From positions 1 through 33,130 of the IMG/VR virus record IMGVR_UViG_3300030060_000840: 33,130 bases of DNA; one strand, written 5' to 3'. Each line of letters opens with the position of its first letter. The first letter of the stretch is position 1. This document shows positions 2,978 through 6,707 of this stretch, piece by piece. Source of the DNA: a virus. The translations under genes and the position numbers were made by a program. Under the pieces are notes generated by a model, which saw only the letters and a list, made by a program, of their open reading frames with translations, was not told the DNA's origin and ran no database searches.

Positions 2978-3157
2978 TCAGAATTGATGGTTGTATTTTA
3001 TGTCGATATATTTGATTTTGTTTTGGTAATATTTAGATTTTGTTGATAGATAATTTTTGTAGTGGTTCATACGTCTAACAGCATGATTGAAATAGTAATA
3101 TTTAGATGACAGTTTTTGACGACGACCACAAGTTAATGTAATAATAATTTCGAACAT
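2978..3157 (-). CDS. Small basic, Tyr-rich hypothetical protein
   Basis: 59 residues from ATG 3157. The start is chosen because a perfect AAGGAGG site stands 5 nt upstream; a longer frame to 3223 would read through the upstream terminator. The protein is very basic and tyrosine-rich (CGRRQKLSSKYYYF, YLSTKSKYYQNKIKYIDIKY). A small nucleic-acid-binding protein is plausible but the family is not recognised. It sits just downstream of a strong terminator, so its transcript should either read through or start in the 3158-3195 gap. Confidence 0.55.
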   Translation of the reverse strand: MFEIIITLTCGRRQKLSSKYYYFNHAVRRMNHYKNYLSTKSKYYQNKIKYIDIKYNHQF

Positions 3158-3195
3158 ATGTACCTCCTTGTTGATACAGTAAGTGGTTGATAAGC

Positions 3196-3228
3196 ATAAA
3201 AAAAGAGGTGGCATGATTACCACCTCTT
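3196..3228 (-). terminator. Rho-independent terminator of the 3248-3664 gene
   Basis: On the minus strand the stem AAGAGGTGG/CCACCTCTT (9 bp, 8-nt loop) is followed directly by seven Ts. It starts about 20 nt after the stop codon of the upstream gene. In the inverted copy (near 4365-4398) the same region is present, but the right half of the stem has been lost. Confidence 0.85.
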
Positions 3229-3247
3229 AGGGAGAATTGGTTTGTGA

Positions 3248-3664
3248 TTAAGCTTTCAATAAAGCATCAATCTCGTCGAGTTCCGCTAGCTTGTTCTTGG
3301 AATTAGATGACTTTGCATTTTGAGTCCAAGCTTTACCAACTAATTTCTTATATACCTCGAGATCAGCCTGGTGTCTGTCATTAAGTTCTGAAAGCTCCTT
3401 TTGCTGTTCTCCAATGACGTAGGCTAGTTTAGACATCTGAACATGGATGACTTCCTGTCCAGAGTATGTCTCACGTAGGTCTGCAAGTTTGTCTCGGTTC
3501 TCAGAGATTTGATCAGACTTATATTGTATGCTGTTAGCAGAAGTGTAACAAGCGTCTCTAGCTATTGATTCTCTGAGATATGTTAGTGAATCTCCAGAAT
3601 GGTAGTTAATAACTTCGATTTTAGAATCTACTAAGTTCTTGTATTTTGTGCTTTTTTTAGACAT
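3248..3664 (-). CDS. Coiled-coil hypothetical protein, first gene of the left minus arm
   Basis: 138 residues, ATG 3664 with GGAGACT 8 nt upstream. It is charged and helical; residues ~50-105 (ISENRDKLADLRETY ... IGEQQKELSELNDRHQADLEVYKKL) look like a coiled coil. The C-terminus is Lys/Ser then acidic (LAELDEIDALLKA). Its own terminator and separate 5' flank make it a monocistronic unit placed exactly at the divergence point of the two genome arms. Function is unknown. It is unusual because a degraded copy of the whole transcription unit lies in inverse orientation across a 104-nt spacer. Confidence 0.7.
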   Translation of the reverse strand: MSKKSTKYKNLVDSKIEVINYHSGDSLTYLRESIARDACYTSANSIQYKSDQISENRDKLADLRETYSGQEVIHVQMSKLAYVIGEQQKELSELNDRHQADLEVYKKLVGKAWTQNAKSSNSKNKLAELDEIDALLKA

Positions 3665-3745
3665 TTTCTAGTCTCCTATTTGGTTAAAATGTAATGCTTT
3701 CGCATCATGATGACGGCATGACATATCATTCGTACATAGAAGATA

Positions 3746-3783
3746 CTGTTCGCCATGACGTCAGTCATATTACTAGCGAACAG
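3746..3783. repeat. Hairpin A at the centre of the inverted duplication
   Basis: The outer stem is CTGTTCGC (3746-3753) with GCGAACAG (3776-3783). Nested inside is ATGAC (3755-3759) with GTCAT (3764-3768). The hairpin is non-coding and not followed by a T-run. It lies in the spacer between the arms, so it is not part of the duplicated unit. Confidence 0.7.
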
Positions 3784-3795
3784 CATACATCAACG

Positions 3796-3840
3796 CGCTT
3801 TCAAGTTAGGCTATGGGTGGTACGGACAAACTTGAAAGCG
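3796..3840. repeat. Hairpin B at the centre of the inverted duplication
   Basis: A perfect 12-bp stem, CGCTTTCAAGTT (3796-3807) with AACTTGAAAGCG (3829-3840), and a 21-nt loop rich in G. It is 12 nt from hairpin A. Together the two fill the spacer between divergent units, a position suited to an origin, a protein-binding dyad or a regulatory RNA structure. No function can be fixed from sequence. Confidence 0.75.
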
Positions 3841-4415
3841 TGCGAATGATATGTGATGTTGACAGCATGATCCTCGCGAAAGGGTTGCATTTTAGCCAAA
3901 TCGTAGGAGACTCAAAATGTCTGAAAAAAGTGCGAAATGCTTTAGAACTTATTAGATTCTAAAATTGAAGTTATGTTTTTAGTATGCCCTTTTAGTACTA
4001 AAAAACTAGCATTGTGGAAGTTTCACTCATGTCTCAGAGAATTGATAGATAGAGTCTTACGCTTGTAACACTTCTGATGACAGTGTACAATGTTAGACTG
4101 GTCATATCTCTGAGGTTCGTGACAAACTCCTACGTGTGATATGCTCTGGACAGGATGTTAGGCATCCTCAGATGTCTATGCTTGCCGTAGTTGGAGAATA
4201 GTGAAAGGAGCGACTTAATGTCAAACACCACTGATGTCGAGGTATATAAGAACCTCTAGTTGGTAAAGGTTGGCACACGAAAAAGCAAAGGCGTCTAATT
4301 GTTAGAACAAGTAAGGAAGTCGACGATATTTATGCGAAAGCTTGGTCACAAACCTAGTCTGCCTTAGAGGTGGCTCTATTAATCATGACGCAACTTTGGT
4401 TAGGCTTAGCAACCA
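3840..4415. repeat. Right arm of the large inverted duplication
   Basis: The arm aligns with the reverse complement of 3184-3735. The 5' flank is especially well kept (GCGAATGATATGT, GCATTTTAGCCAAAT, GGAGACTCAAAATG), and the match ends at the AACCA block at 4411-4415. Beyond that the sequence is unrelated and leads into the terS promoter region. Confidence 0.85.
3917..4342 (+). pseudogene. Decayed inverted copy of the 3248-3664 coiled-coil gene
   Basis: ATG 3917 is preceded by the same GGAGACT as the intact gene. The frame begins MSEKSAK, parallel to MSKKSTK, but a 2-nt insertion and a TAG at codon 13 end it. Homology then continues to the gene's C-terminal codons (AAAGCT at 4337-4342) through many substitutions and several indels, including a 7-nt deletion. 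No frame remains open. The DNA may still work as a structural element or leader for the late operon, since it lies between the divergence point and the terS promoter. Confidence 0.8.
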
Positions 4416-4451
4416 ACAATAAGACTAGCTTGCCCTGGCAAGCCAAGCCTA
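4396..4451 (+). other. Hairpin-rich leader upstream of terS
   Basis: Three stems can be drawn: TTGGTT (4396-4401) with AACCAA (4411-4416), GCTTGC (4428-4433) with GCAAGC (4438-4443), and a long-range TAGGCTT (4401-4407) with AAGCCTA (4445-4451). The first and third share a base and would compete. The segment is non-coding and lies just upstream of a promoter-like sequence. It could be part of a packaging (pac/cos) region or a terminator of transcripts coming from the duplication. Confidence 0.4.
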
Positions 4452-4461
4452 TAATTGTAGG

Positions 4462-4491
4462 TTGACAAGTAGTATTTGGATGAAGTATTAG
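4462..4491 (+). promoter_or_regulatory. Sigma70-like promoter for the late operon
   Basis: TTGACA at 4462-4467, an 18-nt spacer, then TATTAG at 4486-4491. It is followed 19 nt later by the terS start. The -35 box is perfect and the -10 box moderate. It would be read by host RNA polymerase, which fits the absence of a phage polymerase in the window. Confidence 0.5.
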
Positions 4492-4509
4492 GGGGACTAG
4501 GGGGTTGTC

Positions 4510-4896
4510 ATGAGTTCAGATTTAGACAATGGTCGTCGACCTTTGACAAAGAAACAGATGCTTTTAGTTGATACACTCGTAGCAGAAGGTTGTAGTATAG
4601 CTAAAGCCAGCCAAGAAGCTGGCTACGCTAGTGGTGAGTCTGGAAGAGTCACGGCTAGCAAAGCTTTGCGATTACCTCATGTGCAAGAGTACATGATGAA
4701 ACGAATAACAGAATCATTGGGTGTTAATGCTACGTTAGCTAGTGCAAAGCTTGTTAAGCTAGCCAGCGGTGCTAAAAGTGAGTATGTCCAGCTTGAAGCA
4801 AGTAAAGATATCCTTGATAGAGCTGGATTCAAAGCACCAGATAAACATATGCATCTACACGCTGGTGAAATTAAGGTACAGATCGATCTTACATAG
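4510..4896 (+). CDS. Terminase small subunit
   Basis: 128 residues. The N-terminal part (PLTKKQMLLVDTLVAEGCSI, then AKASQEAGYAS) is the DNA-binding helix-turn-helix domain of the Terminase_2 type. It is followed by SKALRLPHVQEYM and a helical oligomerisation region (LEASKDILDRAGF). The protein recognises the packaging site and loads the large subunit. It is the first gene of the plus-strand late arm, with a promoter and two TAGGGGG repeats directly upstream; the GGGGG at 4500-4504 may serve as ribosome site. Unusually, five genes or small ORFs separate it from most of the head module, with terL about 2.5 kb downstream. Confidence 0.85.
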   Translation: MSSDLDNGRRPLTKKQMLLVDTLVAEGCSIAKASQEAGYASGESGRVTASKALRLPHVQEYMMKRITESLGVNATLASAKLVKLASGAKSEYVQLEASKDILDRAGFKAPDKHMHLHAGEIKVQIDLT

Positions 4897-5017: not shown

Positions 5018-5689
5018 ATGAAAGATAATTCAAAGATATTTCTAAAAGCTATAGCAAACGCATTTCTCCCTGAGTTCATGGATAGTGATGAACTAAAGAT
5101 GTCGTCGATAAGTAAAGAAACACAAGATGGACTTCAGCAGTTCTTGGATCAGCACATGGGAGATGTACCAGTTGGAACTTATAAACAGTTTACTTATAAA
5201 CATATAAACAAGTTCTTTCAGACTAAATCAATATTTGAAGGTGGTGGTGAGGGTCCAGCCAAACAACTAAAAACAATACTTGGTGGTTTTGGTGTAAGAA
5301 GAACTGACGACGGCTACAATGTAATAGATACTTATGACTTCTATCCAAGACAGAAGTTTACAAACACAGACAAGGGTGTCTTAACAGAAAATTCAAAGAA
5401 AAAGAATGTTGGATATACTGACGTTGCTCTTCAGCTTGCATACAATCTGGTGGTTGGCAATGATAGTGCTGGTGTTCTTTATGAGCCAGCGAGGATGCTT
5501 GGTGGTATTCTTATACCTGAGAATGATGACCGAAGTCCTAAAGACCCAAAGGCTAGTAATAGTTTAGCGATTGATTGGAATATATCTGAGGGTCAATCAG
5601 TTAAGCAGTCTAAACTTGCAAATGCAGTTTTATCTGCAATGCCTGTACCAAAGCAATCTAGTACATCAACTAAGAATAGGGAGAACTAA
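5018..5689 (+). CDS. Hypothetical protein upstream of terL
   Basis: 223 residues, ATG 5018; no strong ribosome site (weak AAGCTAGAG). No signal peptide or membrane segment is seen. A conserved-looking core has GPAKQLKTILGGF and VIDTYDFYPRQKF, then a Gly/Asn-rich part (LGGILIPENDD). The C-terminus is low-complexity (VPKQSSTSTKNREN). I associate YDTYDF-type motifs with uncharacterised proteins in marine podoviruses but cannot assign a role. Its position between terS and terL suggests a virion or packaging-related protein. It ends 1 nt before the next start. Confidence 0.6.
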   Translation: MKDNSKIFLKAIANAFLPEFMDSDELKMSSISKETQDGLQQFLDQHMGDVPVGTYKQFTYKHINKFFQTKSIFEGGGEGPAKQLKTILGGFGVRRTDDGYNVIDTYDFYPRQKFTNTDKGVLTENSKKKNVGYTDVALQLAYNLVVGNDSAGVLYEPARMLGGILIPENDDRSPKDPKASNSLAIDWNISEGQSVKQSKLANAVLSAMPVPKQSSTSTKNREN

Positions 5690-5690
5690 T

Positions 5691-6707
5691 ATGCCACCAA
5701 GAGGTGTTTACAAAGCAAGGCAAGAAACAAGGACAAGGCAAGCTGATCGAAGTGCAAGACCAGCAAGAGAATCTCGTTCAGATCAAAGAGAAAGAGATCG
5801 TCAAGATGCTGAAAGGAGACGACAAGAAGCACAAGCAAAAAGAGCAAGGGAAGCTGATGCAAGAAGAAAGCAAGCACAAGCTAATGCAATTATTGCTCAA
5901 AGAAAAGAGCGAGAACGTAAAGCAAGAGCAAACCAAGCAAGAAATACAATGACAAGATCAAAGCCTGTAGTAGTAAAAAGTGGTATGACAGGCAATCAAC
6001 TTGGTAGGCAAATACAAGACCCATCTGATATTCAAGCAACAATAAAAGCTGGTAAGAAATTTCAAACACAACAAAAACAAAACAATGCTGTTAAGTCGTC
6101 GACAGTAACAAAGATGTCGCCACCATTAGAAAAAGCAAGAGCAACATCTAAGAGAGGTTTGACTATTACTGGTGGTAAGATAAGTACATACTCAGGTGGT
6201 GAAAGTGGACCAAAACAAAAATCTTTGATTTACAAAGACCCTAATACTGGTTCTACAATAGCTACTAAGGAAGCAAGGACAAACATTGCAAAAGGTGGTG
6301 ACTATAATATTGTTGCTTCAACAGCAAGTAAAACACTTGGCAAAGGTATTCCAACACCGACGACAAAAGAAAGACCAGGCTTAAAAGGAACATCACCTAC
6401 TGGTATGCTCTTTAGTCCAACTACTCCATCTATATCTGCTGGTCAGATTATTGGTCAAAAGCCAAAACCAAAAACTGCTGGACCAAAAGGTTTTACAAAG
6501 AAAACTCCAACAGACTTTATGAAACAACAAGCACAGATTGTTGATAGACTTGACCAGCCATCACAGACAAAACTAGATTTATTAACTGGTGAACCAGTAA
6601 AACCAACAACACCAACTCTTCTTTCTGAGCTTACTAGAAAAAGAAAGAGAAGACAAAAGAGTGGGTTTACTGGAATCATGGCACAGATTAGAACATTGCT
6701 GGGATAA
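5691..6707 (+). CDS. Basic low-complexity Arg/Lys/Gln-rich protein
   Basis: 338 residues from ATG 5691, with AGGGAG 6 nt upstream; an in-frame upstream start at 5571 would lie inside the previous gene. Residues 8-85 are almost entirely Arg, Lys, Gln, Ala, Glu and Asp (QERDRQDAERRRQEAQAKR type), predicting a long charged helix. The rest is Thr/Pro/Gly/Lys-rich and probably disordered, ending KRKRRQKSGFTG. A nucleic-acid-binding internal virion or ejected protein is plausible. Such composition is not diagnostic, and I recognise no family. Confidence 0.6.
   Translation: MPPRGVYKARQETRTRQADRSARPARESRSDQRERDRQDAERRRQEAQAKRAREADARRKQAQANAIIAQRKERERKARANQARNTMTRSKPVVVKSGMTGNQLGRQIQDPSDIQATIKAGKKFQTQQKQNNAVKSSTVTKMSPPLEKARATSKRGLTITGGKISTYSGGESGPKQKSLIYKDPNTGSTIATKEARTNIAKGGDYNIVASTASKTLGKGIPTPTTKERPGLKGTSPTGMLFSPTTPSISAGQIIGQKPKPKTAGPKGFTKKTPTDFMKQQAQIVDRLDQPSQTKLDLLTGEPVKPTTPTLLSELTRKRKRRQKSGFTGIMAQIRTLLG

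Follow-up and report, generated by a model that had tools for sequence, protein, structure and literature searches.

Why would a virus keep, at the point where its leftward and rightward genes diverge, an untranslatable mirror image of one of its own genes? The question is raised by the window analysed here, a stretch of DNA of 33,130 bases that makes up the whole IMG/VR virus record IMGVR_UViG_3300030060_000840. Its rightward genes include terS (starting at 4510), TerL, an internal virion protein and an endolysin, and leftward genes, encoding an anti-restriction protein, a RecE-like exonuclease, ERF and a replication initiator, are found at both ends. At the divergent junction, the leftward series opens with a gene for a protein of 138 aa, and both this gene and the leftward arm are presumed early from their gene content. 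An earlier note on this DNA had described the junction as a large inverted duplication in which the gene, its flank and its terminator face a decayed copy. The features of the junction that emerged from the present analysis are the following:

3116 to 3145, + strand: best sigma70-like match of this strand just outside the 5′ arm, TTGACG-18-AATAAT with TG (promoter search; not significant alone)
3184 to 3735, + strand: 5′ arm of the predicted hairpin RNA, which as + strand RNA would be antisense to the 138-aa gene together with leader and terminator (alignment, fold, pair counts)
3203 to 3228, − strand: putative intrinsic terminator that follows the 138-aa gene and falls within the outermost part of the 5′ arm (terminator-like hairpin with T-run)
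3248 to 3664, − strand: gene of the 138-aa all-helical protein, first of the presumed early leftward arm (dN/dS, motif, predicted structure)
3736 to 3839, + strand: apical domain that separates the arms and contains two small hairpins, CTGTTCGC..GCGAACAG and CGCTTTCAAGTT..AACTTGAAAGCG (fold, sequence)
3840 to 4416, + strand: 3′ arm of the predicted hairpin RNA, a non-coding copy that mirrors leader, gene and terminator region (alignment, relatives, pair counts)
3975 to 4004, + strand: insertion of about 28 nt in the copy, with its own side hairpin TTTTTAGTA..TACTAAAAA (present in close relatives)
4462 to 4504, + strand: promoter-like element TTGACA-N23-GGGGG-ACTA-GGGGG, directly before terS and outside the hairpin (conserved upstream of terS)
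4510 to 4896, + strand: terS (terminase small subunit, PHROG), first gene of the rightward late arm

An inverted duplication with one coding arm

The large inverted duplication of gene, flank and terminator proved to be real. When the reverse complement of 3150-3760 was aligned locally against 3815-4450, the pair 3183-3735 (−) and 3840-4416 (+) was recovered with 434 of 524 aligned bases identical and a score of 266, far above the 15.1±2.2 (maximum 25.5) given by 500 Markov (dinucleotide) shuffles, and a repeat scan recovered the same pair as chained inverted segments that are 79–95% complementary. The arms measure about 553 nt on the gene side and about 577 nt on the copy side and, since a terminator-like hairpin with a T-run (3203-3228) follows the gene, the mirrored unit consists of leader, gene and terminator. 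As for the damage previously attributed to the copy, the early stop stands, its reading frame ending after 12 codons, but a 2-nt insertion and a 7-nt deletion do not describe it fully, given that about 10 insertions, among them one of 28 nt near 3976-4003, and about 9 deletions separate copy from gene. Additionally, the T-run of the gene's terminator is lost in the copy.

The 138-aa gene is protein-coding and the mirrored arm is non-coding. The dN/dS of the gene was 0.13–0.63 in the pairs examined, in which synonymous change is itself limited by pairing, and the motif ARDACYTSxNS was nearly invariant among 41 homologues of the protein. The mirrored arm lacked a full-length ORF in all 34 loci whose stem covers the whole gene, the longest frames being 42–97 aa. 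AlphaFold predicted a confident helical hairpin for the protein (pLDDT 86.5, pTM 0.72). A function could not be drawn from this fold, its PDB matches (Z up to 10.5) being at the level expected of helical bundles, and a structural search returned three weak viral matches of unknown function and no informative relative. The protein matched no Pfam or PHROG family, and the matches of its relatives were weak only. A search of the window for tRNAs found none.

Relatives and covariation between the arms

Close relatives with unrelated DNA in the place of the copy were looked for, and the opposite was found: the 138-aa protein is encoded at 78–99% identity in 12 IMG/VR loci, and both arms and the spacer are present in 12 of 12. 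The IMG/VR loci are partly redundant, and clusters were used where redundancy mattered. In the most distant relatives, the copy is 81–83% identical to that of the window and the gene arm 84–87%, and the insertions and deletions specific to the copy are common to the relatives. An alignment of all arms demonstrated that the two co-vary, with CCTACGTGA in the gene and CCTACGTGT in the copy of the window corresponding to CCTACGCGA and CCTACGCGT in locus L004, and with further co-changes of gene and copy in L007 (ACTTCGTGG and ACTTCGTGG) and L011 (CCTACGTGC and CCTACGTGC).

Pair counts for the window family covered 468 arm-to-arm pairs in 12 sequences (9 distinct) and depend on MAFFT alignments. 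Standard pairs occupied 96.7% of the pair cells, against 91.8% in shuffles and 36–42% in slid structures, a percentage that leans towards the window since the pair structure was taken from its sequence; the double-change counts and the shuffles, which keep relatedness in, are the stronger evidence. Compensatory double changes were counted in 66 pairs (45.6 shuffled, 5–11 slid), double-change cells numbered 207 (81.5 shuffled) and the covariation score was 0.173, and none of these values, the percentage paired included, was reached in 500 shuffles. The further pair types, at 127, were not above the shuffled value of 134.5. A second subfamily presented 55 double-change pairs against a shuffled mean of 18.8 and a third presented 11 against 2.9; in a subfamily of 7 sequences, the fraction paired was barely above that of the shuffles (0.970 versus 0.967). 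Together with the strand asymmetry described below, these counts establish that the two arms are constrained to pair with each other on the + strand, and compensatory base-pair changes above control, by which conserved structured RNAs are recognised, were found in the hairpin.

The substitutions are therefore not random but keep pairing, in every close relative, which bears out the suggestion of the earlier note that the copy is kept as a nucleic-acid structure rather than as a dead gene. Its description as decayed has to be given up, since the 12 relatives and the compensatory change from arm to arm indicate that it is selectively maintained. That it could be a recently decayed duplicate gene without function, as the early stop codon and the frameshifts would suggest, is hardly credible in view of the compensatory change between the arms, the persistence of the copy in relatives whose gene arm has itself diverged, and the recurrence of full-length mirrors in about 13 sequence clusters. 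The relaxed, independent change relative to the parent gene that marks a pseudogene is absent, the arms instead co-changing to a degree reached by 0 of 500 shuffles, and such covariation rules out neutral decay of the copy.

Long inverted repeats are known substrates for gene conversion and template-switch correction, and arms that track each other could also arise by concerted evolution without function, in which gene conversion or quasipalindrome (template-switch) correction copies the gene into its mirror. This explanation is quite improbable, because 49 co-changed pairs between the window and locus L008 lie in at least 17 tracts, split by 50 retained non-Watson–Crick positions. Moreover, correction would not leave a G·U to A·C ratio of 27:1, and the insertions and deletions specific to the copy are common to the relatives.

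Strand asymmetry and the predicted fold

When the 12-sequence window alignment was read as + strand, 454 cells were G·U and 17 were A·C. Within the window, the differences from gene to copy were A>G in 24 and C>T in 15 cases, changes that keep G·U pairs in + strand RNA, against 3 G>A and 3 T>C, which do not. A deamination bias acting in the copy only was considered and rejected, the single-sided changes of the gene arm being biased in the same way; since single-sided transitions favour G·U over A·C in both arms (11–13 versus 2–4 in the gene arm, 15–17 versus 0–2 in the copy), a mutation bias confined to the copy is disfavoured. Across 32 stem-sequence clusters, G·U exceeded A·C in 30, with 2 ties and no reversal (sign test p = 1.9e-9), and the ratio was 61:0 in locus L056; some short-stem families presented little or no asymmetry. 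Because G·U lies so far above A·C, a single transcript holding both arms is needed, and not two transcripts diverging from the centre.

The + strand RNA of 3160-4509 was predicted to fold as a single rod at −700 kcal/mol and the − strand gave −563, compared with −318±27 (+) and −286±34 (−) for 48 control windows of the same size from the genome. The predicted + strand hairpin comprises about 470 bp, about 60 small loops or mismatches and, at the apex, a domain of about 100 nt. Judged only roughly, the mismatches looked randomly placed rather than regularly spaced, with paired runs of at most 27 bp and a mean of about 8.

The main rival to an RNA is + strand single-stranded DNA, which, during replication or packaging, would fold as a hairpin and serve as an origin, a packaging site or a template-switch hot spot. 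G·T pairs are tolerated in DNA hairpins too, so that such a strand predicts the same asymmetry; several families carry an apex with a GAA triloop of the GCGAAGC type, and the site adjoins terS and the twin G-tract element. Nevertheless, this alternative is considered unlikely, given that a G·U over A·C preference of 454:17 goes far beyond the need of a DNA hairpin, that nothing ties the + strand to a single-stranded stage, and that the apex sequence varies across families, the apical motif of the window being present in only 3 of 43. Since G·U is preferred so strongly, we infer that the molecule is a transcribed RNA rather than + strand single-stranded DNA. Thus, the + strand of 3184-4416 probably encodes a non-coding RNA that folds as a giant imperfect hairpin, with its 5′ arm antisense to the first early unit, and on this reading the hairpin is a conserved giant RNA structure and not a dead gene.

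Distribution among terS loci

A search with terS returned 80 loci, 57 of them with enough upstream DNA. A main stem of at least 70 bp was found upstream of terS in 45 of the 57 and one of at least 100 bp in 39, whereas control windows downstream in the same loci held such stems in 8 of 60 and 0 of 60 cases, respectively. As a rule, the stem of these terS loci extends over the beginning of the divergent gene and over the leader of terS. The 138-aa family, used as query, yielded 66 loci, and in 34 the stem covers 95–100% of the gene, with arms of about 400–580 nt (one cut by the contig end) and proteins down to about 33% identity. Across the whole group, the hairpins range from about 80 to 490 base pairs. 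In a sister subfamily (L140, L142-L157), the stem lies over only 7–30% of the 138-aa gene, and therefore stem length has changed within the family.

Some further observations concern the surroundings and the tip of the stem. Two terS loci (L024, L057) seem to have no long stem, and their adjoining leftward gene encodes a 295-aa protein that by appearance resembles the product of the window's anti-restriction gene. In five others (L043, L053, L054, L070, L076), a few hundred bases of apparently structured non-coding DNA lie between the main stem and terS. At the tip of the stem there is often a GAA triloop set in a GCGAAGC-like sequence (L058, L059, L069, L071, L084, L086 and others). A GAA triloop of the GCGAAGC type is an unusually stable DNA minihairpin, and the inverted duplication might have originated by a fold-back at such an apex. 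Apex sequences differ from one family to the next, and GTTCGC..GCGAAC was discarded as a conserved apical motif.

Among cultured phages, Pelagibacter phage EXVC031P Hodr is the nearest relative; its TerS and TerL are 64% and 66% identical to those of the window. It carries at the same place a nearly perfect stem of 218 positions without strand asymmetry (L014, OQ414635.1 reverse complement, 5258-5800; 199 Watson–Crick, 4 G·U, 4 A·C and 11 other), perhaps a young hairpin. Its divergent gene, of 147 aa, is apparently unrelated to the 138-aa gene, no match between them having been found. In Methylophilales phage MEP301, the next nearest by TerL, the gene order around terS differs and terS is co-directional with its neighbours.

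Promoters at the junction

It had also been proposed that the duplication put an early promoter on the other strand and in this way drove late transcription, and the proposal agrees with the location of the arms at the divergent junction and with the leader region being among the parts that are kept. It is unsupported because terS has its own conserved promoter-like element: TTGACA-N22-25-G5-8-N2-7-G5-8 is found downstream of the stem and before terS in 53 of 58 loci. In addition, searches for a shared promoter at the inner region and for a consistent promoter at the outer edges of the arms gave nothing better than shuffles, and a pair of diverging transcripts would exert no selection for pairing within a single strand, a signal that needs one transcript. 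A copied promoter is, consequently, very improbable. The twin G-tract has a single occurrence in the window and could represent a G-quadruplex or a packaging signal. The sigma70-like match at 3116-3145, which is present outside the 5′ arm in the window family, is a possible start of the hairpin RNA.

A possible role for the hairpin

Provided that the RNA reading is right, the most likely mechanism, which we put forward tentatively, would be self-sequestration of an antisense RNA together with a dsRNA block. In this case, the 5′ arm would run exactly antisense to the first early transcription unit over its full length, from the leader through the 138-aa gene to the terminator, and the 3′ arm would be an untranslatable mirror of this unit. 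An RNA polymerase crossing the junction in the late direction would generate an antisense RNA perfectly complementary to the first early mRNA, the mirrored arm would fold this antisense back on itself and so neutralise it, and the junction would become a long dsRNA block, as RNase III substrate or decoy, between the early unit and the late terS operon, which would start at its own promoter. This mechanism is favoured because the stem matches the early unit end to end in the full-length families and covers the translation start in the short-stem families. Alternatively, the hairpin could serve as a dsRNA decoy that engages a host factor, be it RNase III or a sensor of a defence system, or as a structural switch that opens when the early mRNA invades the 5′ arm, with which, unlike the mirrored arm, this mRNA pairs perfectly.

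Whatever the mechanism, we lean towards the view that a widespread group of marine phages keeps a non-coding mirror of its first early gene by selection on pairing alone, and that a late-direction transcript would form a dsRNA rod of hundreds of base pairs. If so, the sequence of the rod would be free to change while the rod itself persists, a protein would be encoded on one DNA strand and, on the opposite one, half of a giant RNA duplex, and the locus would be a prokaryotic counterpart of the hairpin RNAs born from gene inversion.

Comparison with known systems

In eukaryotes, hairpin RNAs (hpRNAs) arise from inverted duplication of their target genes (PMC10317233). The phage locus likewise contains a protein gene in long inverted duplication, with the pairing of the arms maintained and with one arm of the predicted long hairpin RNA antisense to the gene; however, the 5′ arm in the phage is the living gene itself and the host is a bacterium, so that the likeness is one of arrangement only. 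To our knowledge, bacteria have no Dicer-type siRNA pathway; we know of no small RNAs from the phage hairpin, and processing into silencing RNAs would not be expected in a bacterium.

That structured RNA from the terminase region can be relevant for bacterial immunity is demonstrated by the CBASS-activating cabRNA of staphylococcal phages, which is about 400 nt long, comes from within terS-terL and has dsRNA parts (PMC10686824). The hairpin shares with it the terminase region and, by prediction, the dsRNA, but it would be about 1.2 kb long, lies upstream of terS and consists of one long stem that mirrors another gene. An identification with cabRNA was rejected, given that the stem ends at 4416, before terS at 4510, and is thus not from within terS-terL.

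Some large non-coding RNAs of the GOLLD, ROOL and OLE kind are carried by phages. These RNAs are ornate, multi-branched and oligomer-forming (PMC12286853), whereas the hairpin, although also a large structured non-coding RNA by prediction, would be a single long rod in which the sequence can vary freely. The Rfam covariance models, including GOLLD, ROOL and OLE, had no match at gathering score in the whole window, and the sole match at E<1 in 3100-4520 was MIR1222, with 22.6 bits against a cut-off of 90.

In cis-antisense control, as in ColE1 RNA I/RNA II with Rop or in type I toxin-antitoxin systems, an RNA is fully antisense to a gene. By its position, the 5′ arm would likewise be an exact antisense of the 138-aa gene, and the 138-aa protein resembles Rop in being a helical hairpin, a generic match. 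The difference is that the antisense arm would be sequestered by a mirrored, sense-like arm of the same molecule.

Long dsRNA in bacteria is usually thought to be harmful or short-lived, and RNase III cuts dsRNA. A hairpin of about 500 bp kept down to about one third protein identity would point to a role for long dsRNA in bacterial infection; a search of open-access full text found no paper on such a hairpin and no description of such a role. The locus would also offer a clear-cut example of a gene under two simultaneous constraints, one from the protein that it encodes and one from pairing of the antisense strand. These proposals could be tested in the cultured Pelagibacter phage EXVC031P Hodr, which grows on HTCC1062 and carries a hairpin of its own at the corresponding place.
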